Assembly: GCA_002428445.1 (NCBI GenBank) | Contig: DIWJ01000032.1 | Location: 33,278-82,152, forward strand | Length of the DNA: 48,875 nt | Reading direction: 5' to 3' | DNA from: Syntrophaceae bacterium UBA6109 | Lineage (GTDB): Bacteria > Desulfobacterota > Syntrophia > Syntrophales > UBA6109 | In this document: positions 11,360 through 41,110 of the stretch, one piece after another | Layout: each line of letters starts with the position of its first letter | How positions within the stretch are numbered: the first letter of the stretch is position 1 | Position numbers and translations under genes: made by a program | The notes under the pieces: generated by a model | Told to the model about the DNA's origin: nothing | The model's input: the letters and a program-made list of their open reading frames with translations, nothing else | Databases searched by the model: none

Positions 11360-12358
11360 TCATCTGTTGAATGTTTCTTCGAACTGCCTCACGACAGTGA
11401 GCACCTCGTCAAAAGATGGTGGTTCGTCGAAAAACATCTCCCCGCGCATCGCCTCATAATCCCGGCGCCAGTAATTCAAATGCTCCGCGGGCGGCATCAA
11501 TCGCAATGTCCCTTTGCGAAGCGTATCGTAATCAACCCAACTGACTTTGAAAAAGATCTGCCGGTGTGAGGCGACGCGGTTGAACAATCCCGTATCTGCT
11601 GCGGCCTGATCCGCGATACCTTTCAGGATCAGGCACCAAAGGTCATAGTAGTGACGGGAGAGCCTGACGCGGCGAGGCTTGTGGATGGGGCGAAAACTCT
11701 CCTCGTGCAGGAGCATCGCCTTTTCCCAGAAGGTCCGTTCGGCCGTCACCGTCCTCAGTCTGAATACGCTGTCCGTGAGCAGAGCGGGGAATGCCTCTGC
11801 CAGGTAGGGTTGAATGATCGGTTCTTCGACCGGTTCCGTTTCCGAGCGGGCTCCCAGTTCGATTTTGACAACCGGACGAACGTAGACAACGCTCCCGGCA
11901 AAAGCAGACGGATAGTGAAAGAGCAATGTCTGCCGATCCGGATCTTCTTCCACGTCCGCAGGCGTGAGCTGCCATTCGACACCAGAGGGAAGCATTTCCC
12001 GAAATCGGCTCTCCAACGCGGGTCCAAGGCTCGTTTCGATGCAGCTGCCGCAGGCAGCGACCAGCTTTTTCCGTTGTTTCCTACTCAACGTATCCCCTGC
12101 GAACCCGAGGAGGCCGCGATCGATCACCACGTCGATATCCTCAGAGAACCGGGAGATCAGCCGCCATCCCTTGGATAGAGATGTTCCTCCTTTGAAGGTC
12201 AGGTATCCTCTCCACTGCGGCAAGCCGAAGAGTTCTCTCAGTGTCCAGCACACCCAGAAATCTTTTTCGATACTCGCAGGAGGTAGGCCGAGTCGCTGCT
12301 GCCCCTCTTCGCAGAGAAGACGCCGGCGATCAGCTGATAACTCCACGAATGCGTTCAT
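11360..12358 (-). CDS. AbiEii/AbiGii-family nucleotidyltransferase toxin
   Basis: A 332-residue protein of the AbiEii (DUF1814) family, DNA-polymerase-beta-like nucleotidyltransferases that act as toxins of type IV-like toxin-antitoxin or phage-abortive systems. The diagnostic motifs are near the N-terminus: EKDFWVCWTL at about 31-40, FKGGTSLSK at about 55-63, and the metal-binding FSEDID at 71-76. A later conserved RTFWEKAMLLHEE segment is also present. It starts one base after the stop of the AbiEi-like gene, so the pair forms an operon. Length and both catalytic motifs are intact. Some members modify tRNA acceptor ends; the target here is unknown. Confidence 0.9.
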   Translation of the reverse strand: MNAFVELSADRRRLLCEEGQQRLGLPPASIEKDFWVCWTLRELFGLPQWRGYLTFKGGTSLSKGWRLISRFSEDIDVVIDRGLLGFAGDTLSRKQRKKLVAACGSCIETSLGPALESRFREMLPSGVEWQLTPADVEEDPDRQTLLFHYPSAFAGSVVYVRPVVKIELGARSETEPVEEPIIQPYLAEAFPALLTDSVFRLRTVTAERTFWEKAMLLHEESFRPIHKPRRVRLSRHYYDLWCLILKGIADQAAADTGLFNRVASHRQIFFKVSWVDYDTLRKGTLRLMPPAEHLNYWRRDYEAMRGEMFFDEPPSFDEVLTVVRQFEETFNR

Positions 12359-12359
12359 T

Positions 12360-12968
12360 TCATTTTGCCTCGGGATCGGCGATGCGGCGGAAAATAGCTG
12401 CGATCCAGGCGGGAGCGTGACGGATGTCCCGGAGGAGTTGCTTCTTGTCGTCAGCGGTCAGCCGCTTCTGCAGACGCGCCACGACGGCATCATCGACATG
12501 TGCTTGACCGATGTGGCGCAGGGCCTGGATGACCAGGCCGGAGATCCGTCCGGCAGTTGCCATGGCGCGGGGCGTCGTGTGCTTGAGCATGATGACCTGC
12601 TTGCCGATCTGTACGCGGCGCGCCGGGCCGTCCGTGAGAAAAACGATCTTCATCGGTACCTGATCGGAAAGACCCAGCAGATTGGCGGCGTAGCCCCCGG
12701 ACGGCTGCAGAAGAATGTTATCGCGCCCCTTCAGCGCCTCGACAACGGCGTCGATGGTCGGGTAAAGGAGGCCGAGCCCCGGCTCTATTCGCGGGTAGTC
12801 GTACAATCCGCGGGCCAGGCGGCGCAGAGTCCCGTTTTTTGCCAGCCGGTGTAATGCCAGGTCCACCGCCTGCCGGCTTCCGAGGTCCATAAAATAACCT
12901 GGGGTGAAGACGCCACCCTTCCCGCGTCCATATATGCGACTTAGTATTTTAGAATCAATGCTTTGCAT
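12360..12968 (-). CDS. AbiEi/DUF6088-like antitoxin and autorepressor
   Basis: A 202-residue protein with an N-terminal winged-helix region (LSRIYGRGKGGVFTPGYFMDLGSRQAVDLALHR, LAKNGTLRRLARGLYDYP) and a C-terminal domain of the kind that pairs with AbiEii toxins. AbiEi antitoxins both neutralise the toxin and repress their own promoter; that is family knowledge. It is upstream of and adjacent to the toxin gene, the usual antitoxin-first order. A perfect 11-bp inverted repeat (12986-13021) lies 18 bp upstream of the ATG and is a natural operator candidate. The gene appears intact. Confidence 0.85.
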   Translation of the reverse strand: MQSIDSKILSRIYGRGKGGVFTPGYFMDLGSRQAVDLALHRLAKNGTLRRLARGLYDYPRIEPGLGLLYPTIDAVVEALKGRDNILLQPSGGYAANLLGLSDQVPMKIVFLTDGPARRVQIGKQVIMLKHTTPRAMATAGRISGLVIQALRHIGQAHVDDAVVARLQKRLTADDKKQLLRDIRHAPAWIAAIFRRIADPEAK

Positions 12969-13779: not shown

Positions 13780-15096
13780 TTATTTGACGTTGACCAATTG
13801 TGGTGTCTGTTCGTTGTTATATTTTTTCCGGGCCGTCAGTTCCACATTCCTCCGGACATAGGGGTAGAGCCTTTCCAGGTCAATACGGCCTCCTTGATTC
13901 AGGACCGCCTCTTCTTTCAGACCTTTCAGGACGAAGTAGGTCAGAAGACCATGTCCCTTTTCGAGGTAACTGGAACTGACCTGGTTGCCGGCCGATGCGG
14001 AAAGCACCGCCGTGTTACGTCCAATCAGCTCCTGGTTCGCGGCCGTGACGACCAGGGGTCTGAGCCCCTTGGCCATGACAGATCGATTGCCCGCACCTGA
14101 AAAGCAGGAATCAAGGATCACCAGGTTTCTTTTCGAGGGAAGCCCCGCCAGGACGTCATACAGCTTGTGGAGCGGGTAGCCGGTTTCCGAAATGTAGGTG
14201 GGATCGCCGTCATAGGGGACAAGATAGGCATCGTTTCCAGAGGGGTCGGGAGCGCCATGGCCGGAGAAATAGATGAAGACCTCGCTCTCGCCGGTTACAT
14301 TGTTCGGAAGCCACCGCTGAAAATATTTCTCCAGGTCGCTCTTTGACGCCTTGCCATTGGTCAGGATCACCAGATTCTCTTCCGGGACTCCCAGCGCGTT
14401 CACCAAATATTCCGCCACGAGGCGGGCATCCTCGGACGCGAATTCAGCCCTCGGCAATTTTTCCCTGTACTCCTCGATGCCGATGACAATGGCGTAATGG
14501 TTTCCATTGGGTTTCATTTTGACGGCGGGAAGAATGTCCACGTCCGACTTGACGCCCCGTCCGGGCCCGGCAGGTGAAGAAGGGGGGGGCCGGTCCGCGG
14601 TTTTCGCGGCGACGACCGTTGCCGGTTCTTTGCCCTTTTGAATCAGCTTGGCATTCGTAAATGCAGCGGGGAGGGCATCCACCATCTCCTTCTCGTCCGG
14701 ACCCCCCATGGATGAAATCTCAATGTAGTACTTTTTGCCCACGCCGACCGTAATCGGCAGGTATCGATCGGCGAGCCAGGGAGAAACCTCGGCAGCCGGC
14801 AGGTGTGTCGGAACATAAGAAAACCGGTGCTCTCCCGGGCTCAATGCCACAGCCACGAAGGTATTCACGGCCAGCCGGCCTTCGATGCGCGTCCCGTCGA
14901 TGTAAATATCGTAAAGCACCGCGGATCCGAGGAAGAGATTGTCCCGGTATACATAGAGCAGCGCCTTGCCGGGCGGGGGCGCCATGCCTTTCATTTGCGT
15001 GTCCGTTTCGGAGGGAGCAACCGGCACGGTCGCGCAGGCGTTGATCATTCCCAATGAAATCAGAAGTAGCAGTGCGTATGCAATTCTTTGTTTCAT
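13780..15096 (-). CDS. Caspase-like (C14) lipoprotein with DUF2846 domain
   Basis: A 438-residue protein from the ATG at 15096. A lipoprotein signal ends in MINAC (Cys21), which should anchor it to a membrane facing the periplasm. A DUF2846-type beta domain spans about 40-130 (ALLYVYRDNLFLGSAV, DGTRIEGRL). After a Pro-rich linker (165-182) comes a caspase/metacaspase domain from about 199 (YAIVIGIEEY) with the catalytic dyad visible: His280 in YFSGHGAPDP and Cys331 in ILDSCFSGAG. Both catalytic residues are intact. Bacterial caspase homologues occur in stress, signalling and abortive-infection contexts; substrate unknown. The longer in-frame start at 15132 is possible but would place the signal peptide internally. 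Confidence 0.85.
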   Translation of the reverse strand: MKQRIAYALLLLISLGMINACATVPVAPSETDTQMKGMAPPPGKALLYVYRDNLFLGSAVLYDIYIDGTRIEGRLAVNTFVAVALSPGEHRFSYVPTHLPAAEVSPWLADRYLPITVGVGKKYYIEISSMGGPDEKEMVDALPAAFTNAKLIQKGKEPATVVAAKTADRPPPSSPAGPGRGVKSDVDILPAVKMKPNGNHYAIVIGIEEYREKLPRAEFASEDARLVAEYLVNALGVPEENLVILTNGKASKSDLEKYFQRWLPNNVTGESEVFIYFSGHGAPDPSGNDAYLVPYDGDPTYISETGYPLHKLYDVLAGLPSKRNLVILDSCFSGAGNRSVMAKGLRPLVVTAANQELIGRNTAVLSASAGNQVSSSYLEKGHGLLTYFVLKGLKEEAVLNQGGRIDLERLYPYVRRNVELTARKKYNNEQTPQLVNVK

Positions 15097-15220
15097 CACT
15101 TCAACTTTCATCCTCCGGACACACCTGTCCAAGATAGGTTTTGGTCATTGAAGAAGGTGCACGACCTCCGGTAAAAGTTTCTCCGGGAGAAGAAACCAAC
15201 CCCGGAAAGGATGCATCCTG

Positions 15221-28630: not shown

Positions 28631-28978
28631 ACGATTCCCCCATCCCGGAACGCCCGCAAATCTCAGACAAAGCTCTATCACTCCTCGCGAAGCGCAGCAA
28701 CCCCGCCCTTGAGTTCCGGACCTTGCACCATGACCGATATCCCCGGGATCTTGAGAACCAATGCTTTGCGATCGAGCCGCGGGGCTTGCGGTCCTTCCGG
28801 CATCGGGAAGACCCGACAGCCTGCCAGAACAATGCAATAAATTTGCGCCATCCTGTTGCCAAAAGCGAAAGGATTCATATTTTAAGATAGAGATGGGGAG
28901 AGCGGAAAACGGCGAAGGCATTTAACGACATCGATGAACAGGTTGTTTGTCGTCCTGAATCGGAAAGGAGATGAGAGC

Positions 28979-29425
28979 ATGTTTACTCCAAAGAGGATAC
29001 TGGTCCCGACCGACTTTTCTTCATTTTCGGACAAGGCCCTGAAGAAAGCCGTGGAAATCGCCGCGGAGAAGGGAGCGACGATTTATCTGCTTCACGTAAT
29101 CGATCAGCAGGTTCAGCAGTGCGCCGCCGATTACTGCATAGACGCCACGATTGTCAAACAGATGGAACGGGAGGCAGTGAAGACGTCCCGGGAGCTCCTC
29201 GCGAAGCAGGCCGCGGCCGTCACGGCCGGCAAGAAGGTGGAGGTTGTATATGACGTGCAAATGGGATATCCTTCGGAGGTCATCGTCGATGAACAAAAGA
29301 AAAAGAAGATCGACCTGATCGTCATCGCTTCTCACGGGAAAACGGGCCTGAAGAAACTCCTTCTCGGAAGCGTTGCGGAAAGAGTTGTCCGAGGAGCGAA
29401 GTGCTCCGTGATCGTAGTCAAGTGA
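28979..29425 (+). CDS. Universal stress protein, UspA family
   Basis: A 148-residue cytoplasmic protein from ATG 28979, after AAGGAG. It opens with ILVPTDFSSFS and ends with the ATP-binding signature SHGKTGLKKLLLGSVAERV, matching the Gx2Gx9G(S/T) pattern of nucleotide-binding Usp proteins. It is a single-domain member. These proteins accumulate in growth arrest and oxidative stress and may phosphorylate or bind partners. A strong terminator follows, so it is monocistronic. Confidence 0.95.
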   Translation: MFTPKRILVPTDFSSFSDKALKKAVEIAAEKGATIYLLHVIDQQVQQCAADYCIDATIVKQMEREAVKTSRELLAKQAAAVTAGKKVEVVYDVQMGYPSEVIVDEQKKKKIDLIVIASHGKTGLKKLLLGSVAERVVRGAKCSVIVVK

Positions 29426-29525: not shown

Positions 29526-30398
29526 ATGAATAGAGACATGCGCATCCTGATCCTCGAAGACGTAGTGGCGGATGCCGATTTGATCCAATTCGAACTTCGG
29601 GAGGCCGGTGCGGTCTTTGAGTCGAAATGCGTGTGTGATCGAAAATGCTTCATCGAGGCCCTCGATGAATTCTCCCCCGACATCATCCTTTCAGACTATT
29701 CCCTGCCCCAATTCGACGGGCTGTCCGCGCTGAAGATCGCGGTGAGCAAGAGTCCGGGTGTGCCCTTTGTCTTCGTTTCCGGAGCGCTGGGCGAAGAGAC
29801 GGCCATCGCCCTCCTCAAGCAGGGTGCGACGGATTACGTTCTGAAGAGCCGCCTGTCCCGCCTCGCATCGGTCGTAACGCGGGCGCTCCAGGAGGCTGAC
29901 GAGCGCAGGGAGCGCCAGGCGGCGGAAAAGGCACTCAAAGAAAGAGAGCAGGCGCTGGAATTGAAGTCCCGGTCCCTCGAGGAGGCCAACACGGCCCTGA
30001 AGGTCCTGCTTCAGCACCGGCAAGAGGATAAGGCAACGCTGGAAGAACAGGTGCTGGCAAATGTCCGGAAGCTGATTCTCCCGCACATCGAGAACCTGAA
30101 GCATCTCAAGCTCAATGATCATCAGCTGGCCCAGGTTGAGATCATCGAGAGAAACCTCCGTGACATCGTGTCTCCCTTTTTATGCACGCTGACCTCGGCC
30201 TACCTGGATCTGACCCCGCGGGAAATACAGGTCGCGAACCTTCTCAAGGAAGGGAAGACGACCAAGGAAATGACCGATATCCTGAACATCTCCGCTACCT
30301 CGGTGGACTTCCACCGGAAGAACCTCCGCGCAAAATTCGGCATAAAAAACAAAAAAACCAATCTCATGGCCTTCCTTTCGTCCCTCCCCGATCGGTAG
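29526..30398 (+). CDS. Response regulator: receiver, coiled coil and LuxR-type HTH
   Basis: A 290-residue transcription factor from ATG 29526 (GGAGGATGGATC upstream). The receiver domain (about 5-125) has the acidic pair near ILEDV, phospho-acceptor Asp57 in LSDYSLP, the switch Ser in VSGALG and the conserved Lys in YVLKSRL. A charged coiled coil (130-210) and a LuxR-type HTH at about 228-285 (LTPREIQVANLLKEGKTTKE, SVDFHRKNLR) follow. No sensor kinase is adjacent. The same coiled-coil/LuxR tail occurs on PAS proteins in deltaproteobacteria. Target genes unknown. Confidence 0.92.
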   Translation: MNRDMRILILEDVVADADLIQFELREAGAVFESKCVCDRKCFIEALDEFSPDIILSDYSLPQFDGLSALKIAVSKSPGVPFVFVSGALGEETAIALLKQGATDYVLKSRLSRLASVVTRALQEADERRERQAAEKALKEREQALELKSRSLEEANTALKVLLQHRQEDKATLEEQVLANVRKLILPHIENLKHLKLNDHQLAQVEIIERNLRDIVSPFLCTLTSAYLDLTPREIQVANLLKEGKTTKEMTDILNISATSVDFHRKNLRAKFGIKNKKTNLMAFLSSLPDR

Positions 30399-31511: not shown

Positions 31512-32540
31512 TCACCCAGCCCTCTTTCCCTGATCCTCGTAGCCGCCTCCTGTTGTCTTCCCGCGGAAAAGCCAGCGCTTGTAACCGGTATAAACGAGGA
31601 TGACCGGAAGCAGGATCGCGATGGCGGCGAGCATGAAGATTAGGGTCCGGGGGGAGGATACCGCGGCGTTTTGAATCGTCACCATGTTGGGAATGATATA
31701 GGGGTAGAAACCGACGGATATGCCGGTAAATGAACAAAAGACCAGGATCACGTTCCAGCGGAAAGGCGCCGTGTCCGATCGCCCGAGGCTGCGAAGATAC
31801 AGGGCGAATGCGGCCAGGGCGAGGGAGGGAAAGACGGCGACGTAGAAAAGCTCCGGCATGGCGGTCCACTTCCGCGCCATGTAGGGATGGCGCGCAACCG
31901 TCCAGATGTAAATGACGATGGACACGACAAGGGTCGAATAGGCGGCGACGGAAGAAACCCGCATGCTGGTCCGCTGGATTTCACCGTCCGTCTTCAGAAT
32001 AAGGTAGTTCGCCCCCAGCATCACATAGCCCGAGACCACGCCCAGGGTGAAGACGATGGAGTAGGGATGGAACCAGCTCCAGACCGTTCCGGTAAAGGTC
32101 TGCCCGTCCATGGGAATGCCGTAAAAGATGCCCCCCAGGGTGAAGCCCTGGCAAAGAGCGGTTACGAGGCTGCCGAGACCGAAGGACAGGCTCCAGCGGG
32201 AGGGCCTTTCCGATTGACCGCGGAACTCGAAGGCCAGACCGCGGAAGATCAGCCCGAAGAGCATGATGGTGATCGGCACGTAAAAGGCGGAAAGGGCCAC
32301 GCTGTAGAAAAGCGGGAAGGCCCCGAAGAGCATCCCGCCGAGAAGAACGAGCCAGGTCTGGTTGTCCTGCCAGTTGCTCTGGAGGCTCGCCATCATGAGA
32401 TCCCGCTGCGCCTCATCCCGGGACAGGAGGGAAATGACCCCCACGCCGAGACCGAGGCCGTCGGCAACGGCATAATAGAGGACAAAAAAACCGATGATCA
32501 AAAACCAGATCTGGGCAACGTGAGCCTCAAGCCACTCCAT
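31512..32540 (-). CDS. cydB: Cytochrome bd quinol oxidase, subunit II
   Basis: A 342-residue subunit starting at ATG 32540 (GGGGAGGGCGG upstream), overlapping the end of cydA by 14 bp. It is all membrane helices, opening with MEWLEAHVAQIWFLIIGFF and including the conserved DGLGLGVG turn. Further conserved segments are NWQDNQTWLVLLGG and FRGLAFEFRG. With CydA it reduces oxygen with quinol at the inner membrane without pumping protons. The length is shorter than E. coli CydB (379), in the range of CIO-type enzymes. Confidence 0.93.
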   Translation of the reverse strand: MEWLEAHVAQIWFLIIGFFVLYYAVADGLGLGVGVISLLSRDEAQRDLMMASLQSNWQDNQTWLVLLGGMLFGAFPLFYSVALSAFYVPITIMLFGLIFRGLAFEFRGQSERPSRWSLSFGLGSLVTALCQGFTLGGIFYGIPMDGQTFTGTVWSWFHPYSIVFTLGVVSGYVMLGANYLILKTDGEIQRTSMRVSSVAAYSTLVVSIVIYIWTVARHPYMARKWTAMPELFYVAVFPSLALAAFALYLRSLGRSDTAPFRWNVILVFCSFTGISVGFYPYIIPNMVTIQNAAVSSPRTLIFMLAAIAILLPVILVYTGYKRWLFRGKTTGGGYEDQGKRAG

Positions 32541-33924
32541 ATCCGCCCTCCCCTGAAGAACCGCTCCCCGCAGGGTTTTCTCCCTGCGGGTCCGGCCCCC
32601 GGACAATCATGCGCCGGGCAAAGAAGAAGAAAACGAAGGCAAGAAAGGCATAGACGAGGGCAAAGACGAGCAGCGAGGCAGCCACCGTCCCGGCGGGGAC
32701 CTGGGAGGCCGATTCACCCGTCCTGAGCATTCCGTGGATGGCCCATGGCTGACGGCCAACCTCGCGGGTCACCCATCCCGTCTCCATGGCGAGATAACTG
32801 AGCGGCACGGCCGCCATCCAGACGCGAAGAAGCCACTTCCGTGCGGAAACGCGTTCAGGATCGAGTCCTCCCCTGCGCCAGACCCACAGCGTCCAGAGCG
32901 CAAGCGCAAAGAGGGCAAAGCCGGCGGCCACCATGATCCGGAAGGAGTAGAAGGGCAGTGCGACCGGCGGCCGGTCTTCCCGCGGGAAATCCCTCAATCC
33001 CCGGACTTGCCCGGTTATCGAATGGTTCGTCAGGATGCTCAGAACGTAGGGGATTTCGATGGACCAGGCATTATCCTGCCTTTCGGGATCGGGCCAGGCG
33101 AGGATCGCGAAGGCGGCCCCCTCCCCCGGCGGATTGGTGTGCCAGTGGGCCTCGAATGCGGCCAGCTTGGCGGGATCGTACCTCTGCACCGCCTTCCCCG
33201 AACCGTCGCCGAGCCAGATCTGCAGGGGGGCGATCACGATTGCCGCAAGAACGGCCCATTTGAAGGAAGCGAGGAAGAAAGCGGTATGCCTGTTCCTGTA
33301 AAGGTACCAGGCGCTCAGCCCTCCCACGACGAAGGCGGAGACCTCGAGGGCGGCCAACCACATGTGGGGAACGCTCCACATCATGTCCGGGTTGAAGATG
33401 GCCTCCAGATGACTGGTGACGACGAATTTCCCGTGGTCGAAGAAACCGCCCCGCGGCGTCTGCATCCATGAATTGGCCACCATGATCCAGAAGGCGGAAA
33501 GGGATGCCCCGAGCGCCACCATGGATGTGGCAAAGAGGTGCATACCCGGGGAGACCTTCTTCCACCCGAACATCATGATCCCGATGAAGCTGGCCTCGAG
33601 CATGAAGGCCATGGCCGCCTCGTACCCCAGCATGTGTCCGAAGAAGTCGCCCCCGGCCCGGGAGAATGCGCTCCAGTTCGTCCCGAACTGGAATTCCATG
33701 GGAAAGCCCGTGGCTACGCCGATCGCGACGTTGAGGAAGAAAAGGTGGCTCCAGTACTTTGCATGGCGAAGATATTCCCCGTTACCGGTTCGAATCCAGC
33801 GGATCTCGAGAAAAACCAGGAAGAGGCTCAAGCCGATCGTCACCACCGGCCAGATAATGTGAAACATGGCCGTGAATGCAAATTGCAGCCTTGAGAGTGT
33901 GACCGTATCGAGGAAGCCGTGCAT
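32527..33924 (-). CDS. cydA: Cytochrome bd quinol oxidase, subunit I (short Q-loop type)
   Basis: A 465-residue subunit. His19 in the FTAMFHIIWP segment and the conserved SVPHMWLAALE (His ligand region) and GRQPWAIHG near residue 395 are present; FPMEFQFGTNW and TPRGGFFD are further signature stretches. The quinol loop is short, as in the cyanide-insensitive CIO branch. The enzyme has very high oxygen affinity and protects against oxygen. Two copies of the TGGTAG-N7-CTACCA palindrome lie upstream. It is the first gene of cydA-cydB-ubiA. The start codon is taken at 33924. Confidence 0.95.
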   Translation of the reverse strand: MHGFLDTVTLSRLQFAFTAMFHIIWPVVTIGLSLFLVFLEIRWIRTGNGEYLRHAKYWSHLFFLNVAIGVATGFPMEFQFGTNWSAFSRAGGDFFGHMLGYEAAMAFMLEASFIGIMMFGWKKVSPGMHLFATSMVALGASLSAFWIMVANSWMQTPRGGFFDHGKFVVTSHLEAIFNPDMMWSVPHMWLAALEVSAFVVGGLSAWYLYRNRHTAFFLASFKWAVLAAIVIAPLQIWLGDGSGKAVQRYDPAKLAAFEAHWHTNPPGEGAAFAILAWPDPERQDNAWSIEIPYVLSILTNHSITGQVRGLRDFPREDRPPVALPFYSFRIMVAAGFALFALALWTLWVWRRGGLDPERVSARKWLLRVWMAAVPLSYLAMETGWVTREVGRQPWAIHGMLRTGESASQVPAGTVAASLLVFALVYAFLAFVFFFFARRMIVRGPDPQGENPAGSGSSGEGGYGVA

Positions 33925-34046
33925 GAGGATTCCTTCAGGAAGAATCGGCTTTCCGACGCGCTTCGCCCGCGAGGCGCCGCACCCTGCCGTAGATTTAACT
34001 TATGATATTCCTTGAGAAAAACAATGAGTATTCGCAGGAGGCATAA

Positions 34047-34065
34047 TGGTAGGGAGAATCTACCA
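34047..34065. promoter_or_regulatory. Respiratory palindrome, site 1 (cydA/receiver intergenic)
   Basis: TGGTAG, 7 bp, CTACCA: a perfect dyad of 12 specified bases. It lies in the divergent space between cydA and the CheY-like gene. A second site is 43 bp away, about four helical turns, so both sites face the same side of the DNA. Confidence 0.7.
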
Positions 34066-34089
34066 ATGAGGAAGCTGTCTTTTCGCTGA

Positions 34090-34108
34090 TGGTAGCGGCT
34101 CCTTACCA
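34090..34108. promoter_or_regulatory. Respiratory palindrome, site 2 (cydA/receiver intergenic)
   Basis: TGGTAG, 7 bp, TTACCA: 11 of 12 positions match the palindrome of site 1 with identical spacing. It is closer to the receiver gene than site 1. No other copy was seen in the 275-bp intergenic interval. Confidence 0.65.
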
Positions 34109-34199
34109 ATAACCTCACTATGGATTCGTATTGTCGGGTCGCCTCCGTTTATTTATTCTTGCGGAGGGACGAAGTCAACCAAGACGAGGGAGGTGCGCC

Positions 34200-34556
34200 A
34201 TGAAAGTGTTGGTCGTGGACGACAATCCGGACATCCTGGAATTTCTGTCTTCCGCCATGAAACTCTTCGGCCATACGGTGGACACGGCATGTGACGGCGT
34301 CGATGCGATTTCTCTGCAATCGAACAACCGCTACGACGCGGTCATCACGGATGCCGACATGCCCAGAATGGACGGCTTCAGCCTGTGCAGGATCGTGAAG
34401 GAGCAGTCTCCCGGCGTCCGCATTATCGGCATGAGCGGCGTGTGCGGAGAGAAGGCCTTCCTGAATGCCGGGGCCGACGCCTGCCTTTCCAAACCCTTCA
34501 GCATCAGCGAATTGAGGGAAGCGGTGGAAAACCGTCCCTCCGCTCCCCCGCTCTGA
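34200..34556 (+). CDS. Stand-alone CheY-like response regulator receiver
   Basis: A 118-residue single-domain receiver from ATG 34200, with GGGAGG seven bases upstream. The acidic pocket DDNPD, the phospho-acceptor in TDADMPRMDGF (Asp near 52), Met-Ser-Gly in place of the usual Thr/Ser region (IIGMSGV), and Lys in LSKPFS are all present. No DNA-binding domain is attached, so it must act through a partner protein. It diverges from cydA across a region holding two palindromes, and its function may be to relay a signal to the respiratory regulator; that is inference. Confidence 0.9.
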   Translation: MKVLVVDDNPDILEFLSSAMKLFGHTVDTACDGVDAISLQSNNRYDAVITDADMPRMDGFSLCRIVKEQSPGVRIIGMSGVCGEKAFLNAGADACLSKPFSISELREAVENRPSAPPL

Positions 34557-34784
34557 AGCGGATCGATCCTGAACACCTCATGAACCCTGACATCGTTAAA
34601 ATGATTCGATATGAACACGACGAAGTCCCGTTCGCAGACCAGAGGCGGTCCGATCGGAAGCGGACTGTCCGCTTGCCCGGTCGCGGCCAGAAGGGTCCCT
34701 GTCAGGACCAGGCCGGAATCAAAGACACCGATCTTACGGACAAGCCTCCATTCATGGGTTTCTCCACTCTCGTTACGGCTCCGC
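34557..34784. other. Short stretch without a recognisable gene
   Basis: It separates the receiver gene and the convergent cytochrome c gene. No hairpin with a T-run and no frame with a ribosome site was found. Confidence 0.35.
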
Positions 34785-35111
34785 TCAGAACTTCTTGAGG
34801 ATATACTCTGCAATCTGGCGCGCCGTTTTGTCGGGGATCATCCCTGCATCAAACTTCGTCATGCCCGGCCCGGGGTCCCTCATCTTCTTGACGATATCGT
34901 CGACGGTCCTGATCCCGTTTGCAGCAAGACTCTTCTTATGCAGGCTCTTGGACGGAGTGATGAGATTTTCGCCGTTGGCATGGCAGACGACGCAATTCGA
35001 CAGAAAGGCCTCTTCTCCCGGAGTGACCATCTGGGCCTCCGCCGTCACACGGTGCCCTGGCAGGAGAAGGAAGGCCGTCAGGGCTGCGATAGGGATGATA
35101 TTCTTCTTCAT
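34785..35111 (-). CDS. Monohaem c-type cytochrome, secreted
   Basis: A 108-residue protein from ATG 35111 (GAGGTGCGAC upstream). A Sec signal peptide (IIPIAALTAFLLLPG) is followed by one class I haem site CVVCH (about residues 40-44). The distal Met ligand is probably in the MRDPGPGM or FDAGMIPD segment. Small cytochromes of this size carry electrons in the periplasm, for example from a quinol:cytochrome c reductase to an oxidase. A TGGCAG-N7-CTACCA site lies 134 bp upstream, so it may be co-regulated with the cyd and bc/caa3-type genes. Confidence 0.9.
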   Translation of the reverse strand: MKKNIIPIAALTAFLLLPGHRVTAEAQMVTPGEEAFLSNCVVCHANGENLITPSKSLHKKSLAANGIRTVDDIVKKMRDPGPGMTKFDAGMIPDKTARQIAEYILKKF

Positions 35112-35244
35112 GTCGCACCTCGCTCGTTCAGGTCATGCCGTTGCCGGCTTTATCCGGCAAAAATCCCGCAAAGGCTGGAAGGCCTTTTCTGCAAATCTAC
35201 CGATGGATTGCGCCGGAAACAACACGGATTGATCGTATGTCTAT

Positions 35245-35263
35245 TGGCAGGCTATATCTACCA
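35245..35263. promoter_or_regulatory. Respiratory palindrome, site 3 (upstream of the cytochrome c)
   Basis: TGGCAG, 7 bp, CTACCA: 11 of 12 positions match the site 1 palindrome with identical spacing. It lies 134 bp upstream of the cytochrome c start. A half-site CTACCG is at 35197-35202. Confidence 0.6.
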
Positions 35264-35366
35264 TCCGACCCGGCACGGCTGCGATGCATCTCGGCAACCC
35301 CCTGTGAGGAGTAAAAATTATGACGAAGGAGTATTTTCTCCAGAAGCGGTCAGGGGAAGGCATCGT

Positions 35367-37796
35367 TCAGAGCTTTTCTCTTCTCAATCTCAGGGAATTG
35401 GCGATGACCGAAACGGAACTGAAGCTCATGGCGGCGGCGGCGATCATAGGACTGAGGAGAAGCCCGAAGAAGGGATACAGCGCACCCGCGGCAATGGGAA
35501 CGCCCAGCGCATTATAGATAAAGGCAAAGAACAAGTTCTGTTTGATATTGCGCATCGTGGCTCTGCTCAGGCGCCTTGCACGGGAAATACCCCGGAGGTC
35601 GCCTTTGACCAGGGTGACCCCGGCACTTTCCATGGCGATATCGGTCCCGGTACCCATGGCAATCCCCACATGGGCCCGCGCCAGCGCAGGCGCATCGTTA
35701 ATGCCGTCACCGGCCATGGCGACAATATGTCCGCTCTTCTGAAATTCTTTAACCTTCTCTTCTTTTTGATCCGGCAGAACCTCAGCCGCCACTTCGTCCA
35801 GATCAAGCTTCCTGGCAACTGCCTCTGCAGTCACCTTATGATCGCCAGTCAACATCACAATCCGGATGCCTTCGGCGTGCAGTTGTTTGACCGCCTCGGG
35901 AGTAGTCTTCTTGATCGGATCGGCGACCGCCAGCAAACCGCCGGCTTTGCCCGCAATCCCCACAAGCATGACGGTCTGTCCTTCGGACCGCATGGCCTCG
36001 GCCTGTTGTGCGAAAGAGCCGGCATCGATTCCGAATTCTTCCAGCAACGAAGCGTTCCCAAGTAAGATAGGCTGGCCGTCAATCTCACCGGAAACACCCT
36101 TGCCGGTATGGGAGGCAAATTTTTCCGCCTTGCTCAAGTGGAGTCCTCGATGGATGGCACCTTCGACAATGGCCGCCGCCAGCGGATGTTCACTTCCCTT
36201 CTCCAGAGATGCCGCCAACAACAATAATCTGTTTTCATCAATGCCCGGCGCCGTGACAACTTCTACCAGTTTCGGTTTGCCTTCAGTCAGGGTTCCGGTC
36301 TTGTCAACCACCAGGGTTGTGACTTTTCTTAAGGTTTCGATTGCCTCGGCATTTCTAAACAGGACACCCATGGTTGCACCCTTGCCGGTTGCCACCATGA
36401 TCGACATGGGCGTTGCCAGGCCCAAAGCACAGGGACAGGCGATGATCAACACTGACACGGCGGCAATCAGCGCGTGGGCTAATCGTGGTTCAGGACCGAA
36501 GAAGTACCAGATGACAAAAGCGACAAGCGCGATGGCGATCACTGCCGGCACAAAGTAGCCTGACACGACGTCGGCAAGTTTCTGTATCGGCGCTCTGCTT
36601 CGTTGCGCCTCGGCCACCATCTTGACAATTTGCGACAGCACGGTTTCAGCGCCGACCTTCTGGGCCTCCATAATTAATGAGCCGGTGCCATTGACCGTCG
36701 CGCCGATGAGTTTATCCCCCGGTTGTTTCTCGACCGGTATTGCTTCGCCGGAAATCATCGATTCATCGACGCTGCTTGAGCCTTCAAGAACGGCACCGTC
36801 CACGGGAATCTTTTCCCCCGGGCGGACTCGCAGACGATCGCCTTTCATTACCTGTTCCAGCGGAATATCATGATCATTTCCGTCAACATCCATTTTCCTG
36901 GCAGTCTTCGGCGCCAGACCTAACAGCGCCTTTATGGCCGCACCAGTCCGGCTTCTCGCTCGCAGTTCCAGCACCTGTCCCAGCAGTATCAGCACGACAA
37001 TGACGCCGGCTGCCTCAAAATAGACCCCAACGGTACCTTCTGCTGTCCGCATTGCCGCCGGAAAGAGATGCGGAAGCAACACGCCGATCAGGCTGTAAAT
37101 GTAGGCTACCGAAACCCCGAGGCCGATCAAGGTAAACATGTTCAAGCTTCTGTGAATGACGGACTGGACGGCCCGGACGTAAAAGGGCCACCCGGCCCAG
37201 ATAACGATCGGTGTCGCGAGGACCAGCTCCAGCCACTCATAGGTCTTGACGGTGGCCAGTGTATTCAGAAACTGACCGCCGGGGACAAGATCGCGCATGG
37301 CGATCATTACCAGCGGAAGCGTCAGGATAGCGCCCACAATGAACCGCTTGCGCATGCTCTCATATTCCGGGTTGCTCTCTTCTTCCCTCATCGAGATGGT
37401 TTTCGGTTCCAATGCCATGCCGCACTTTGGGCAAATGCCCGGCGCATCCCGGATAATCTCGGAATGCATCGGGCAGATCCATTCGGTCTTCGACGACTGG
37501 GGATGATTCGGCGCGACCCGCTCAAGCGTCATGCCGCATTTCGGGCAGGCCCCGGGTCCGGCCCGACGAATCTCCGGGTGCATGGGACAAGTGTAAATCG
37601 CAGCGCTCTTCGATTTATCCACCTCCTGCGAACGCTCCGCATTGGTGGGGGCATCCAAATAAGACTCGGGATTCTTATCAAAGTCCTCCTTGCACGGCTT
37701 TGAGCAGAAATAATATGTGTCGTTTTTGTAAGTCGATTTAGCGACAGCGCCAGTGTCTTCAATGATCATCCCGCAAACCGGATCTGTAACTTTCAT
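35367..37796 (-). CDS. Cu(I)-transporting P1B-type ATPase with YHS and two metal-binding domains
   Basis: An 809-residue pump from ATG 37796 (AGGAGG seven bases upstream). The N-terminus is unusual: a YHS domain (DPVCGM at 5-10, then YYFCSKPCK), then two HMBD modules (YTCPMHPEI with CPKCGM, and WICPMHSEI with CPKCGM), and no classical CxxC HMA domain. The core has the TM6 CPC in [17 protein letters not shown] with the phospho-Asp, SEHPLA, and [13 protein letters not shown]7 ALGVP and TM8 MSFSSVSV match Cu(I) P1B-1 pumps. It exports copper to the periplasm; supplying copper for an oxidase CuB site is one possibility, given the neighbours. Confidence 0.92.
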
Positions 37797-37847
37797 CTGT
37801 TCCTCCTGCCACCGAACAGCAGACAAGCCTTGTTTACCGGGACGTGC

Positions 37848-37868
37848 AGGAATTCATATTGAATTCCT
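37848..37868. promoter_or_regulatory. Perfect 9-bp inverted repeat between the SHOCT and ATPase genes
   Basis: AGGAATTCA, 3 bp, TGAATTCCT. A 3-nt loop is too short for a full hairpin, so a dyad operator is as likely as an RNA structure. It lies 13 bp downstream of the SHOCT stop and 52 bp upstream of the ATPase ATG, on the minus-strand transcript. Confidence 0.35.
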
Positions 37869-37880
37869 CTTTGCGGGCCG

Positions 37881-38189
37881 CTATTCGCCGATGTCCTTTT
37901 TCATCTTTTCGAATTCTTCCTTCGTTATTTCGCCGCTGGCATAACGCGATTTGAGAATATCCAGCGGGGACCGGCCGTGTTTGTCGTCCGGTTTCACCTT
38001 CCGGAGAATCAGGAAAATGATGACTGCGACAAGAATAATAAACGGCACTCCCATGAAAACGCCTCCGAATCCATGGTTCATCATATGATCCCAGCCGCCG
38101 CCGGGACCATAGCCCGGACTTGAACACGACACCAACGACGAACCGCTGGAGATCGCGACAAGCAAACTTCTCGTTCCCTTCTTCATCAT
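37881..38189 (-). CDS. SHOCT-domain lipoprotein/membrane protein
   Basis: A 102-residue protein from ATG 38189. A hydrophobic N-terminus ends in the lipobox-like LVSC (Cys22), then a glycine- and methionine-rich stretch (GPGGGWDHMMNHGFGG), a membrane helix (VPFIILVAVIIFLIL) and a C-terminal SHOCT motif (DILKSRYASGEITKEEFEKMKKDI). The His/Met-rich part resembles copper-binding linkers. It precedes the copper ATPase by 84 bp and is likely in the same transcript. Function in metal handling is inferred from this context. Confidence 0.8.
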   Translation of the reverse strand: MMKKGTRSLLVAISSGSSLVSCSSPGYGPGGGWDHMMNHGFGGVFMGVPFIILVAVIIFLILRKVKPDDKHGRSPLDILKSRYASGEITKEEFEKMKKDIGE

Positions 38190-38240
38190 GGGCCCCTTTC
38201 ACGCAGTCAGCAGATTTTCTACAGCCGGTCGACCCGGCCC

Positions 38241-38271
38241 CTGCATGGCTCCAACAAGATTCGCCATGCAG
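38241..38271. promoter_or_regulatory. Perfect inverted repeat upstream of the SHOCT/copper ATPase genes
   Basis: CTGCATGGC (38241-38249) and GCCATGCAG (38263-38271) form a perfect 9-bp dyad with a 13-bp spacer, 52 bp upstream of the SHOCT ATG. No T-run. It may be a metal-sensor operator. Confidence 0.45.
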
Positions 38272-38438
38272 GATCTCTCGATTTTGATGTTCTATCTTCG
38301 TGCATTTCCTCCGGGGGATGCCATCGGGGAAAGTCTGAAATATCGCCCTCGAAATTTCTTAGACCGCGTCAGGGAATGCCTCTCGATTTCCGGCATTCGT
38401 GTCGCTTCCTGATTTCCCCTGCGTCTTCCATCTTTCAA

Positions 38439-38457
38439 TGGTAGCTTTCCCCTACCT
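38439..38457. promoter_or_regulatory. Respiratory palindrome, site 4 (upstream of the Rieske operon)
   Basis: TGGTAG, 7 bp, CTACCT: 11 of 12 positions match the palindrome with identical spacing. It is 162 bp upstream of the Rieske ATG and about 62 bp from TATGAT at 38508, the best -10 candidate. Confidence 0.6.
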
Positions 38458-38618
38458 TTTTTCTGACTCTTTCTCCGTATTTCTTTCGACCGGCAAGTGC
38501 ACTAACTTATGATGACGATTACGCAATCGATTGCGCATCCCCGGGAGCGCGGCCGGCAGGGCCCGATCTTCCGCCCGCGGCCGGAGGGTCTGTCATATCG
38601 CATTTTTGAGGAGGCCTC

Positions 38619-39161
38619 ATGGAAGAAACCGGCACAGCCCCGGACAATGAAACCGGCGATGAGATCAGCACGCGCCGGCAATTCCTGAAATGGGCGACGG
38701 GAATTCTCACCCTGCTCTGCGGGGCGATCGTGGGCATTCCCCTTCTTGGTTCCCTCTTCGGCCCGGCCTTCAGGGCCACGAAGACCTCCTGGATTAAGGT
38801 CGGCGATATCGGAACGCTGCCCCTCGGCCAGCCTGTCAGCCTGAAGGTCGTCGACGTGCAGACGGACGCCTACGTCCGGGAATCCGTGATCCGCCACTTA
38901 TGGGCGATTCGGCACAGCGGCGCCGATGTCACGGTCTTTTCTCCAACCTGTACCCATCTGGGCTGCCAGTACACCTGGAACGCCGCAAACGGGCATTTTG
39001 AATGTCCCTGCCACGAGAGCGTCTACGCGCTCGACGGGACGGTTCTCGGCGGCCCCGCTCCCCGCCGGCTCGACACGCTGTCGACACGGATGGAAAAGAA
39101 CGAACTGTATGTCGAGTGGAAGCGGTTCAAGAGCGGCGACCCGGAAAAACATCCTGTGTAG
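38619..39161 (+). CDS. Rieske iron-sulfur protein of a bc-type complex
   Basis: A 180-residue membrane-anchored protein. A twin-arginine-like start (STRRQFLKW) precedes one membrane helix (about 25-48). The 2Fe-2S ligands are Cys111 and His113 in CTHLGC and Cys129 and His132 in CPCH; Cys116 and Cys131 should form the disulfide. The usual Gly after CPCH is Glu here (CPCHES). It takes electrons from quinol and passes them to a cytochrome. It is the first gene of the eight-gene respiratory operon, 11 bp before the cytochrome b gene. Confidence 0.93.
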   Translation: MEETGTAPDNETGDEISTRRQFLKWATGILTLLCGAIVGIPLLGSLFGPAFRATKTSWIKVGDIGTLPLGQPVSLKVVDVQTDAYVRESVIRHLWAIRHSGADVTVFSPTCTHLGCQYTWNAANGHFECPCHESVYALDGTVLGGPAPRRLDTLSTRMEKNELYVEWKRFKSGDPEKHPV

Positions 39162-39172
39162 GGAGGCATCCC

Positions 39173-41110
39173 ATGTTCTCGCGGCTTTCCGGCCGGATTT
39201 CTGATTGGATCAATGAGCGATGGCCCCTTTCCTCATCCATCCGCCTGGCCCTGGACGAGGAAATGGCCGGAGGCAGCAGCTATGCCTACGTATTCGGCAG
39301 CTCTGCCCTCATCATCTTTTTTCTGCAGGCCGCAACGGGGATCTGGCAGCTTTTCTATTATGTCCCCATCCTCGGTCACGGGTACAACAGCCTGAACTAC
39401 CTGCGCACGGAAGTGCCGTTCGGATGGCTGATCCACGGGCTCCACTTCTGGGGGGCCACCGCCATGGTCGTCCTCGTGATGCTCCACATGTCCCAGGTTT
39501 TTCTCTGGGGGGCCTACAAGCGTCCCCATGAACTGCAGTGGGTCACCGGTGTCTTTCTGTTCTTTCTGACGATGGCGATGAGCCTGACCGGAGGGGCGCT
39601 CCCATGGGACAAGCGCAGCTACTGGCTTGTCGAAGTGGCGTCGAGCGCCGCCGGCACGGTTCCCGTCGTCGGCGACTTCATCAAGCGGTCCATGCTGGGG
39701 GGTGGCGTCATCGGACAGCTGACGCTCTCCCGCTTTTTCATCCTCCATGCGGCGATCCTCTCCGGAACGCTCTTCGTCCTCGCCGCCATCCACCTCATCG
39801 CCCTTCGGAAGGTCGGAAATGCGGGACCCTGGGATGAAAAGAAACGTGCAAAGAAGGGACCCTTCTGGCCGGATCAGGTGTTCAAGGACGGTCTTGCCGC
39901 GAGCCTTATCATCCTTCTCCTTGTGGCCCTGTCGGCCTACCTGCCCCCGCCCTTCGCCGGCATGGCGGATCCGCTCGATGCGTCCTACATCCCCAAGCCG
40001 GAATGGAATTTTCTTTTCTTCTATCAGCTCCTGAAATTCTTCCCCGGGCGGCTCGAGGTCATCGCCACCGTGGGAATCCCCGCCATCGGGGCGCTGATCC
40101 TTCTCCTGATCCCCTTCGCGGACAAGTCGCCGGAACGCAGCCCCCTCCGCCGGCCTCTGGCCATGGCGGGATGGCTTGCCGCGGCGGTGATGTTCGTCGC
40201 CTTTACGCTGGCCGGGGCGTACAGCAAACCGGAGGGCCTGGAGGCAGCCGCGGCCGCAACGGCGCCTCCGCCGGCTCCCGCCGCATCGGCAGGATCCGCA
40301 AACGGCGAAAAGACCGGGAAGGAGCTCTTCCAATCGCAGGGATGCACCGCCTGCCACCGGATCGGCGGCGCCGGAGGAAGCATCGGTCCGGATCTCTCCG
40401 GCGAAGGGCTGCTGGGCCGCTCGCGGCAATGGCTGGACACCCAGCTTCGCAACCCGAAGGCCCACAACCCCTCCTCGATCATGCCCCCGCTCGCGGCCCT
40501 GAGCCGGGAGGAGTTCGATCGGCTGATCGATTACCTGCTCAGCCTCAAGGAAGGAACCGGTTCCGCGGCAGTCGGCGAAGGAATCGCACCGGCGGCGGCC
40601 GTCCCGGCAGGTCCCCGGGGCGAACCCGGCATGGCCGTTTCCATCATCGGCAGCGCCGATCACGGGGCGCTTCTCTTCGCGGGCAACTGCGCCTCCTGCC
40701 ACGGCCCCGACGGGGCCGGCAAAATCGCAAATCCCGGCTCGAAGGATGGAACGGTTCCGTCCCTGAACCCGGTCGACCGCGATGCATTCAGCCCCGACCC
40801 GGAGGATTTCGCCGCAATGATCGACCGTTACATCCAGCACGGCTCGCGCCCGGAAGGTCCGAACCCCCGGGTTACCATGCCTCCTTTCGGGGATACCCAT
40901 GCCCTGACACAGCAGCAGATCGCCGATATCGAGGCTTACATCCTCCGGCTGAACGGCGTGGATCGGGCCGCCATCAAGTCCCCCGGGGTCTCACCGGCGG
41001 TCTTCTTCTCCGCCGCCGCCATCCTCTTCCTCCTGGCCGGCTTGTGTCTATGGGGCTGGTGGAAGTTTGCAGGACCCCGCAAGGGGAAGAGAAAGGGGAA
41101 AGGATCGTGA
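39173..41110 (+). CDS. Cytochrome b fused to a di-haem cytochrome c
   Basis: A 645-residue fusion from ATG 39173 (GGGAGGCATCCC upstream). The N-terminal part is a cytochrome b6-like unit: helix B His pair 14 residues apart and helix D His pair 15 apart (as in b6), with a PEW motif (IPKPEWNFLF) in the following subunit IV-like part. After an Ala/Pro-rich linker near residue 365 come two c-haem domains, CTACH (about 395) and CASCH (about 508), and a final membrane helix. Cytochrome b and c1-type function are thus on one chain. The Cys that binds haem cn in b6-type proteins is not evident in the N-terminal segment. Confidence 0.92.
   Translation: MFSRLSGRISDWINERWPLSSSIRLALDEEMAGGSSYAYVFGSSALIIFFLQAATGIWQLFYYVPILGHGYNSLNYLRTEVPFGWLIHGLHFWGATAMVVLVMLHMSQVFLWGAYKRPHELQWVTGVFLFFLTMAMSLTGGALPWDKRSYWLVEVASSAAGTVPVVGDFIKRSMLGGGVIGQLTLSRFFILHAAILSGTLFVLAAIHLIALRKVGNAGPWDEKKRAKKGPFWPDQVFKDGLAASLIILLLVALSAYLPPPFAGMADPLDASYIPKPEWNFLFFYQLLKFFPGRLEVIATVGIPAIGALILLLIPFADKSPERSPLRRPLAMAGWLAAAVMFVAFTLAGAYSKPEGLEAAAAATAPPPAPAASAGSANGEKTGKELFQSQGCTACHRIGGAGGSIGPDLSGEGLLGRSRQWLDTQLRNPKAHNPSSIMPPLAALSREEFDRLIDYLLSLKEGTGSAAVGEGIAPAAAVPAGPRGEPGMAVSIIGSADHGALLFAGNCASCHGPDGAGKIANPGSKDGTVPSLNPVDRDAFSPDPEDFAAMIDRYIQHGSRPEGPNPRVTMPPFGDTHALTQQQIADIEAYILRLNGVDRAAIKSPGVSPAVFFSAAAILFLLAGLCLWGWWKFAGPRKGKRKGKGS

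Follow-up and report, generated by a model that had tools for sequence, protein, structure and literature searches.

GacA is a member of the NarL/FixJ family of response regulators, DevR and OsdR carry a LuxR-type helix-turn-helix (HTH), and the operators of NarL and NarP consist of two TACYYMT-like heptamers in a 7-2-7 arrangement with the TAC ends outside. Members of the Syntrophales are largely known as syntrophic anaerobes. Here we describe a stretch of 48,875 nt from Syntrophaceae bacterium UBA6109 (contig DIWJ01000032.1), hereafter the window, which carries four copies of the palindrome TGGTAG-N7-CTACCA together with a gene for a response regulator with a LuxR-type HTH. From sequence comparison, we consider it quite probable that this regulator reads the palindromes, which would serve as activator sites in a single two-component regulon. 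What is new is a motif of its own and an unusually rigid promoter for a stress/oxygen regulon under a response regulator, a type of regulon otherwise known.

As the original prediction held, the NarL heptamers are shared only in part and are otherwise arranged. The right flank of the palindrome, CTACCAAT, holds a TACCAAT heptamer fitting the loose form TACYNMT, whereas the TAC ends point towards each other with 9 bp between them and are not the outer ends around a 2-bp gap, and the 7-2-7 operator form was not found in 48 aligned promoters of relatives, where both orientation and spacing differ. The nearest published site found, as far as the excerpted text of the cited sources goes, is the GacA box of Pseudomonas, TGTAAG-N6-CTTACA, located at -75 and -196 bp (PMC4950607). 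Both sites lie upstream of the promoter and have inverted 6-bp half-sites of similar letters (CTTACA and CTACCA) set apart by a short spacer of fixed length. However, the spacer is 7 here rather than 6, the half-site and the targets are others, and the palindrome is rigidly phased by 20 nt to the -35 element and apparently accompanied by direct-repeat half-sites. The spacer-6 version of the TGGTAG/CTACCA palindrome had no match in 398 kb.

In content, the nearest regulons in the same excerpts are those of DevR/OsdR and NmpR, which have different sites or a different class of regulator. The DevR/DosR and OsdR dormancy regulons have in common with the present one a palindromic operator, universal stress, heat-shock and redox targets, universal stress proteins (USPs) clustered near two-component genes and a predicted site before osdR itself (PMC5069765). 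They differ in that their palindrome is GC-rich, 16 bp long and without a long spacer, that they belong to Actinobacteria, and that they respond to oxygen depletion (PMC5069765), whereas the targets here suggest a probable oxygen-exposure signal; the letters of the palindrome as excerpted differ from those of the 48 aligned promoters. The NmpRSTU oxygen-utilisation regulon of Myxococcus xanthus is likewise under two-component control and was found through a scan for a spaced palindrome, although its system is NtrC-like and sigma54-dependent and its site is GCGCA-N5-TGCGC (PMC11841059). TGGTAG and CTACCA in connection with a regulon or response regulator were not found in the open PMC literature, which is weak evidence of absence.

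Allowing one mismatch, the palindrome occurs four times in the window, compared with 0.03 expected from dinucleotide shuffles. Two sites lie between cydA and a gene for a CheY-like protein, one lies 5' of a small cytochrome c gene and one 5' of a Rieske/cytochrome b-c/caa3-type operon (Table 1), with coordinates and match grades (12/12, 11/12, 11/12, 11/12) exactly as first claimed. At three mismatches there are 15 matches against 7.9 expected, so that only strong matches carry meaning. The identical 7-bp spacing of the four sites, part of the same claim, holds well beyond the window. Spacers of 0 to 15 were scanned in 398 kb, made up of partly overlapping stretches around the regulator gene from 13 relatives and the window (one stretch, L201, was chosen because of a site); spacer 7 was the only length that gave palindromes with at most one mismatch, the other 15 giving none. 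Of the 24 spacer-7 rows one was counted twice through overlapping loci, leaving 23, four of them in the window. The 7-bp spacing is a real constraint on the palindrome.

An alignment anchored on the palindrome revealed a longer layout, in which the palindrome is followed by 20 nt, YATTGT (which contains the TTG of the -35 element), 17 nt and a TAnnnT -10 element. Of 89 unique sites of relatives with at most one mismatch, 46 have ATTG at precisely offset 21, compared with 38 occurrences summed over the 59 other offsets. TAnnnT follows the TTG hexamer at a distance of 17 bp in 52 of 95 promoters, and the other spacers between 13 and 21 account for 0 to 15 promoters each. The 48 phased promoters also conserve T at +1 (45/48), C at +5 (46/48), A at +15 (45/48) and C at +17 (40/48). 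A sigma54 -24/-12 element was not seen on reading the aligned columns, which have the TTG hexamer and TAnnnT at 17 bp instead. By its appearance this would be a sigma70-type promoter whose palindrome has its centre near -67 relative to the inferred start. In the same alignment the right half-site, CTACCANT, seems to be directly repeated 11 bp downstream as CTTMCAAT; a fainter repeat another 11 bp further overlaps the -35 element and is confounded by it.

All four sites of the window follow this geometry, with one promoter each for cydA, the CheY-like gene, the cytochrome c gene and the Rieske operon, and they do so although the window was excluded from the offset count, the 48-promoter alignment and the training of the weight matrix. 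Both sites of the cydA/CheY-like interval had been attributed to cydA. The placement of the -35 and -10 elements revises this, since the left site points leftward to cydA and the right site rightward to the CheY-like gene. An extended pattern (a 44-bp signature with columns from relatives and a limit of three mismatches, chosen in the knowledge that the Rieske site requires three) matches only the four sites, with 0.00 expected. A weight matrix trained on 95 promoters of relatives, with loci L294 and L296-L300 and all three-mismatch promoters left out, scores them at 23.3 to 46.7; nothing else in the window reaches 6, in keeping with the earlier remark that no site was noticed by eye in other intergenic intervals, and neither five shuffled windows nor the reversed window yielded a match. 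The Rieske promoter is the loosest fit to the pattern (TATTTC in place of YATTGT) and the CheY-like promoter has the lowest score. From their sequence and geometry, it is very likely that the four motifs are genuine control sites.

Homologues of the cytochrome b fusion encoded in the Rieske operon, at identities of at least 68%, included five organism-labelled ones, all from Syntrophales or Syntrophaceae metagenome-assembled genomes (MAGs). The closest genome locus among the matches listed, L001 (genome G001), is from a Syntrophaceae MAG with 70% identity to the fusion, and the genome scans were therefore made in 155 genomes of its order. The extended pattern had 144 matches in 30 of these genomes compared with 11 for the reversed control, and 22 genomes had at least two; the enrichment is partly circular because some of these genomes supplied promoters from which the pattern was built. 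In seven genomes that contributed none of the 48 aligned promoters (G020, G028, G057, G078, G079, G081, G084) it had 37 matches against one for the control, some of the seven being close kin of contributing genomes as judged by shared promoter sequence. In an evenly drawn sample of 395 genomes of the phylum, several matches were found only in G001, G033 and G037; a further 17 genomes had a single match, which we regard as noise since the reversed control matched in 47. Exact palindromes seen by eye inside coding sequence in G024, G025 (C42), G092, G105, G106, G111 and G122 were read as chance occurrences. Of 85 further promoter places 80 were taken in, and G080:C50 (already included), G081:C93:6043, G081:C298, G001:C176 and G146:C7 were left out.

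First genes were assigned by an automated call of the longest nearby open reading frame (ORF) for 152 promoters, which include the four of the window and some chance matches. The resulting counts are approximate because the call is wrong at the CheY-like, cytochrome c and G128 wrbA promoters. The groups are USPs (11), WrbA-type flavoproteins (10), a small periplasmic-looking family (6), YtxH-like proteins (5, by reading), a GYGMGPGMM-rich family (5), ferritins (4) and smaller groups; a USP-rich stress and redox target set like that of DevR/DosR is thus present, with representatives confirmed. The wrbA promoters of G037, G030, G080, G128 and G010 share the full layout. Pfam searches with single representatives identified haem-copper oxidase subunit I (G128 and G126, read as the cbb3 type), a NuoA-type fragment, desulfoferrodoxin, Cu/Zn superoxide dismutase (SodC), a sigma70 factor (G056), ferritin, flavodoxin-like WrbA, Ku, a multihaem cytochrome, Hsp20, a phosphoribosyltransferase, a molybdopterin oxidoreductase, a DegP-like protease, a release-factor-like protein, a receiver domain and a USP; three of the 20 target representatives tested had no Pfam match. 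As judged from these predicted products, the promoter class marks a stress/oxygen regulon and not a purely respiratory one, with only some oxidases among the targets. The small periplasmic-looking family (L253:4762-5130, L341, L265, L250, L311, L315) is repeatedly the first gene, and the one member tested had no Pfam match.

The regulator encoded in the window has a receiver domain (PF00072, E 1.5e-12) and a C-terminal LuxR/GerE-type HTH (PF00196, E 1.1e-13), the combination of the NarL/FixJ type, and its HTH matches chains of RhlR, SdiA, EsrB, GerE and VraR. A Lys192 contact of NarL was sought and not found. In relatives, some exact palindromes adjoin oxygen-defence-like genes and close relatives of this regulator. 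All 17 genomes with a regulator homologue at E of at most 1e-60 have at least two extended matches, compared with five of 138 others (Fisher 1.4e-18, the threshold having been picked with both lists in view and kinship being ignored). At most 15 candidates per genome were scored in the homologue survey, so that regulators can be missed. Linkage points to the same gene, as 40 of 118 extended matches lie within 20 kb of it, compared with about 1.5 expected, in 16 of 18 regulator-bearing genomes. Likewise, in a hand count of ten genomes that each carry a full-length relative of the regulator, 14 of 57 bare sites with at most one mismatch lie within 20 kb of it, against 0 of 59 for the reversed control (Fisher 1.9e-5). 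The recognition helix T[AS]VDFHRKN is found in the window and in 19 genomes, every one of the 19 with at least two matches, and in the other homologues (12 genomes) the K of the helix is replaced by D (10) or N (2), 11 of these genomes having no match and G083 having one. In the phylum sample, homologues at E of at most 1e-95 occur in two of the 395 genomes, both already among the known ones. By co-distribution, linkage and recognition helix this LuxR-type response regulator is the best candidate for the reader of the sites.

Families present in at least three of 14 regulator neighbourhoods are receiver-only proteins (in 12 of the 14), USPs, sensor proteins, WrbA, ferritin and small proteins. 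Genes for MASE3 or other PAS-type sensors adjoin the regulator in L120, L126, L131 and L195 (MASE3 confirmed by Pfam for L120, the rest by reading); in the window neither a sensor gene nor a receiver-only protein was seen adjoining it. In G079 and G080 a contig ends in the N-terminal part of a regulator-like gene with an extended match in front of it, a hint of autoregulation. As a separate observation, the closest relative has a weak promoter-like match (score 13.2) at position 1384 of L203 (G001:C56), between the regulator and a USP. A single unassigned regulator had been proposed for the quinol (bd) and cytochrome c branches. The sites probably do belong to one regulator, but a candidate can now be assigned, and respiratory genes are not the main part of the regulon.

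The sequences themselves display the sites, the fixed spacing within the promoters, the range of targets and the way in which sites and regulator occur together, and from these we infer the following mechanism. A histidine kinase would phosphorylate the NarL/FixJ-type response regulator in response to an oxygen or redox signal, the nature of the signal being judged solely from the targets. The phosphorylated dimer would bind TGGTAG-N7-CTACCA, centred about -67 from a predicted transcription start, and also touch the weaker direct repeat of the half-site, one helical turn further downstream, and perhaps a second repeat that extends into the -35 element. RNA polymerase would then be recruited to a promoter of the sigma70 type that has a poor, TTGTTT-like -35 and a 17-bp spacer. 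In this organism activation would turn on the bd oxidase, the CheY-like protein, cytochrome c and the Rieske/b-c/caa3-type operon, and in relatives the same putative switch stands before genes of oxygen and oxidative-stress defence and general stress. Activation is preferred over repression because the palindrome lies wholly upstream of weak sigma70-like -35 hexamers at the usual 17-bp spacing. A more far-reaching form of the model is possible, although we hold it only tentatively. The operator would be a composite array in which an inverted pair of CTACCANT half-sites is followed by head-to-tail half-sites at 11-bp steps into the -35 element, and the NarL/FixJ-type protein would act as a tandem-repeat (PhoB-like) activator and Syntrophales-specific global regulator, through which supposedly strict anaerobes link their terminal oxidases with defence against oxygen and stress.

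If the proposed activation is right, the site, the promoter geometry, the targets and the probable regulator make up a candidate control circuit for how Syntrophales may switch on oxidases and oxygen defence. The 44-bp signature predicts regulon members in uncultured genomes, and the aligned promoters and regulators form a natural series for the study of DNA choice by LuxR-type recognition helices.

Conservation was also followed at the targets of the window itself. The cytochrome b fusion was found in one of the 155 genomes, G001, a class-level search having covered the same 155, and in its locus the Rieske-operon promoter is kept with a score of 39.6, ATTG at the exact offset and a degenerate left half-site. 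Relatives of cydA at E of at most 1e-60 occur in 80 of the 155 genomes; 12 cydA loci were checked with the palindrome and five with the matrix. Conservation in orthologous promoters, named earlier as a form of support, applies to the Rieske promoter in the one genome of the order that has the cytochrome b of the operon, but not to cydA in three close orthologues.

Several results weigh against the proposed regulon and its reader. The bare palindrome is hardly enriched, with 30 exact sites in 20 of the 155 genomes against 23 for the reversed control, and, with one mismatch allowed, 57 against 59 in ten regulator-bearing genomes. Being near noise genome-wide, it was abandoned as a search signal by itself, so that the anticipated enrichment holds for the full promoter but barely for the 19-bp pattern. 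The regulon counts come from related genomes, which are not independent events, and kinship inflates the statistics. Agreement of the recognition helix follows orthology and so is not independent of the distribution test, and the regulator is present in 14 of 14 neighbourhoods by construction because the stretches were centred on it. In two of the 18 regulator-bearing genomes, G001 and G028, there is no match within 20 kb of the regulator gene, and the pieces read of G084, G127 and G031 (6, 3 and 3 matches) contained no FHRKN-type regulator. In the window, a matrix scan found no promoter of this class at the USP/regulator pair, though USPs are the commonest target family in relatives. Upstream of the cydA orthologues in G080, G079 and G078 (L217-L219; 77, 76 and 83% identity, the last partial), no site was found.

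Some of these points would also fit a real operator-promoter class whose reader is a different DNA-binding protein travelling with the LuxR-type regulator in the same lineages. Kinship confounds the distribution tests, and the three genomes with several matches and no matching regulator could be explained in this way. The half-sites seem to recur at 11-bp steps, which resemble OmpR/PhoB-type boxes, and NtrC-like regulator genes lie beside two sites in G010 (one confirmed by Pfam, the other by eye). We nevertheless consider a different reader unlikely, since linkage to the LuxR-type gene extends over 16 of 18 genomes, no second HTH regulator was recognized on reading representatives of the families in at least three of the 14 neighbourhoods (one small zinc-ribbon-like protein was present in three), and the -35 and -10 elements at 17-bp spacing are not a sigma54 layout. 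It is also unlikely, and if anything slightly more so, that the regulator binds in the proposed way with repression as its main effect, or that the element is an alternative-sigma promoter and not an activator site. A sigma factor gene is among the targets (G056) and the YATTG and AATC blocks are strongly conserved, which would favour such readings; yet the palindrome is fully upstream of the -35 element, and hexamers resembling weak sigma70 elements at 17-bp spacing have the layout of activation. Chance palindromes or a spreading repeat element, suggested by the palindrome-only counts, can practically be dismissed in view of the fixed spacing to the -35 and -10 elements, mostly different flanks, the extended matches (four versus 0.00 expected for the window and 144 versus 11 control matches for relatives) and, above all, the phasing of ATTG at offset 21.

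Table 1. Predicted promoter parts and genes of the putative regulon in the window.
Feature	Position	Strand	Remarks
Palindromic operator, cydA promoter	34047..34065	-	Centre about -67 from inferred start; score 44.1
Third half-site position, cydA promoter	34034..34041	-	Direct repeat of right half-site at +11 bp; degenerate; from column conservation in relatives
-35 hexamer TTGTTT, cydA promoter	34019..34024	-	Fixed 20-nt spacing to YATTGT
-10 position, cydA promoter	33996..34001	-	AAGTTA at 17 bp, weak match; TAAGTT one base upstream
Palindromic operator, CheY-like gene promoter	34090..34108	+	Score 23.3, lowest of four
Third half-site position, CheY-like promoter (CTCACTAT)	34114..34121	+	From column conservation in relatives
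-35 hexamer TTGTCG, CheY-like promoter	34131..34136	+	
-10 hexamer TATTCT, CheY-like promoter	34154..34159	+	
Palindromic operator, cytochrome c promoter	35245..35263	-	Score 46.7
Third half-site position, cytochrome c promoter (CATACGAT)	35232..35239	-	From column conservation in relatives
-35 hexamer TTGTTT, cytochrome c promoter	35217..35222	-	
-10 hexamer TAGATT, cytochrome c promoter	35194..35199	-	
Palindromic operator, Rieske/b-c/caa3-type operon promoter	38439..38457	+	Score 32.4; L001 counterpart 39.6
Third half-site position, Rieske promoter (CTGACTCT)	38463..38470	+	From column conservation in relatives
-35 position TTTCTT, Rieske promoter	38480..38485	+	Poorest of four
-10 hexamer TAACTT, Rieske promoter	38503..38508	+	
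NarL/FixJ-type response regulator (receiver and LuxR/GerE HTH), proposed reader of sites	29526..30398	+	Pfam; distribution, linkage, recognition helix
Universal stress protein adjoining regulator	28934..29425	+	Without detectable site
cydA, bd-type oxidase subunit I, putative target	32527..33924	-	
cydB, bd-type oxidase subunit II	31512..32606	-	Presumed same operon as cydA
CheY-like single receiver domain protein, putative target	34200..34556	+	
Small c-type cytochrome, putative target	34785..35111	-	
Rieske protein, first gene of putative target operon	38619..39161	+	
Cytochrome b fused to c-type haem domains, putative target operon	39173..41110	+	
Oxidase genes after cytochrome b fusion	to about 45387		ORF reading only

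Back-to-back opposed promoters of this class are found at 34022-34133 of the window and at G079:C144:11969-12037, G080:C44:82598-82666 and G084:C152:12105-12214. Genes for a copper-type P-ATPase and a SHOCT-domain protein (window 35367-38189) are divergent from the Rieske operon, and the intervening site faces the Rieske side only; a relative of the P-ATPase in G055 (L201, L092) ends beside a promoter of the same class. Elsewhere in the window, a gene for an AbiEii nucleotidyltransferase adjoins a DUF6088 gene (11360-12968), resembling a type IV toxin-antitoxin pair, and the region 13780-15132 encodes a protein with a caspase (Peptidase_C14) domain and DUF2846.

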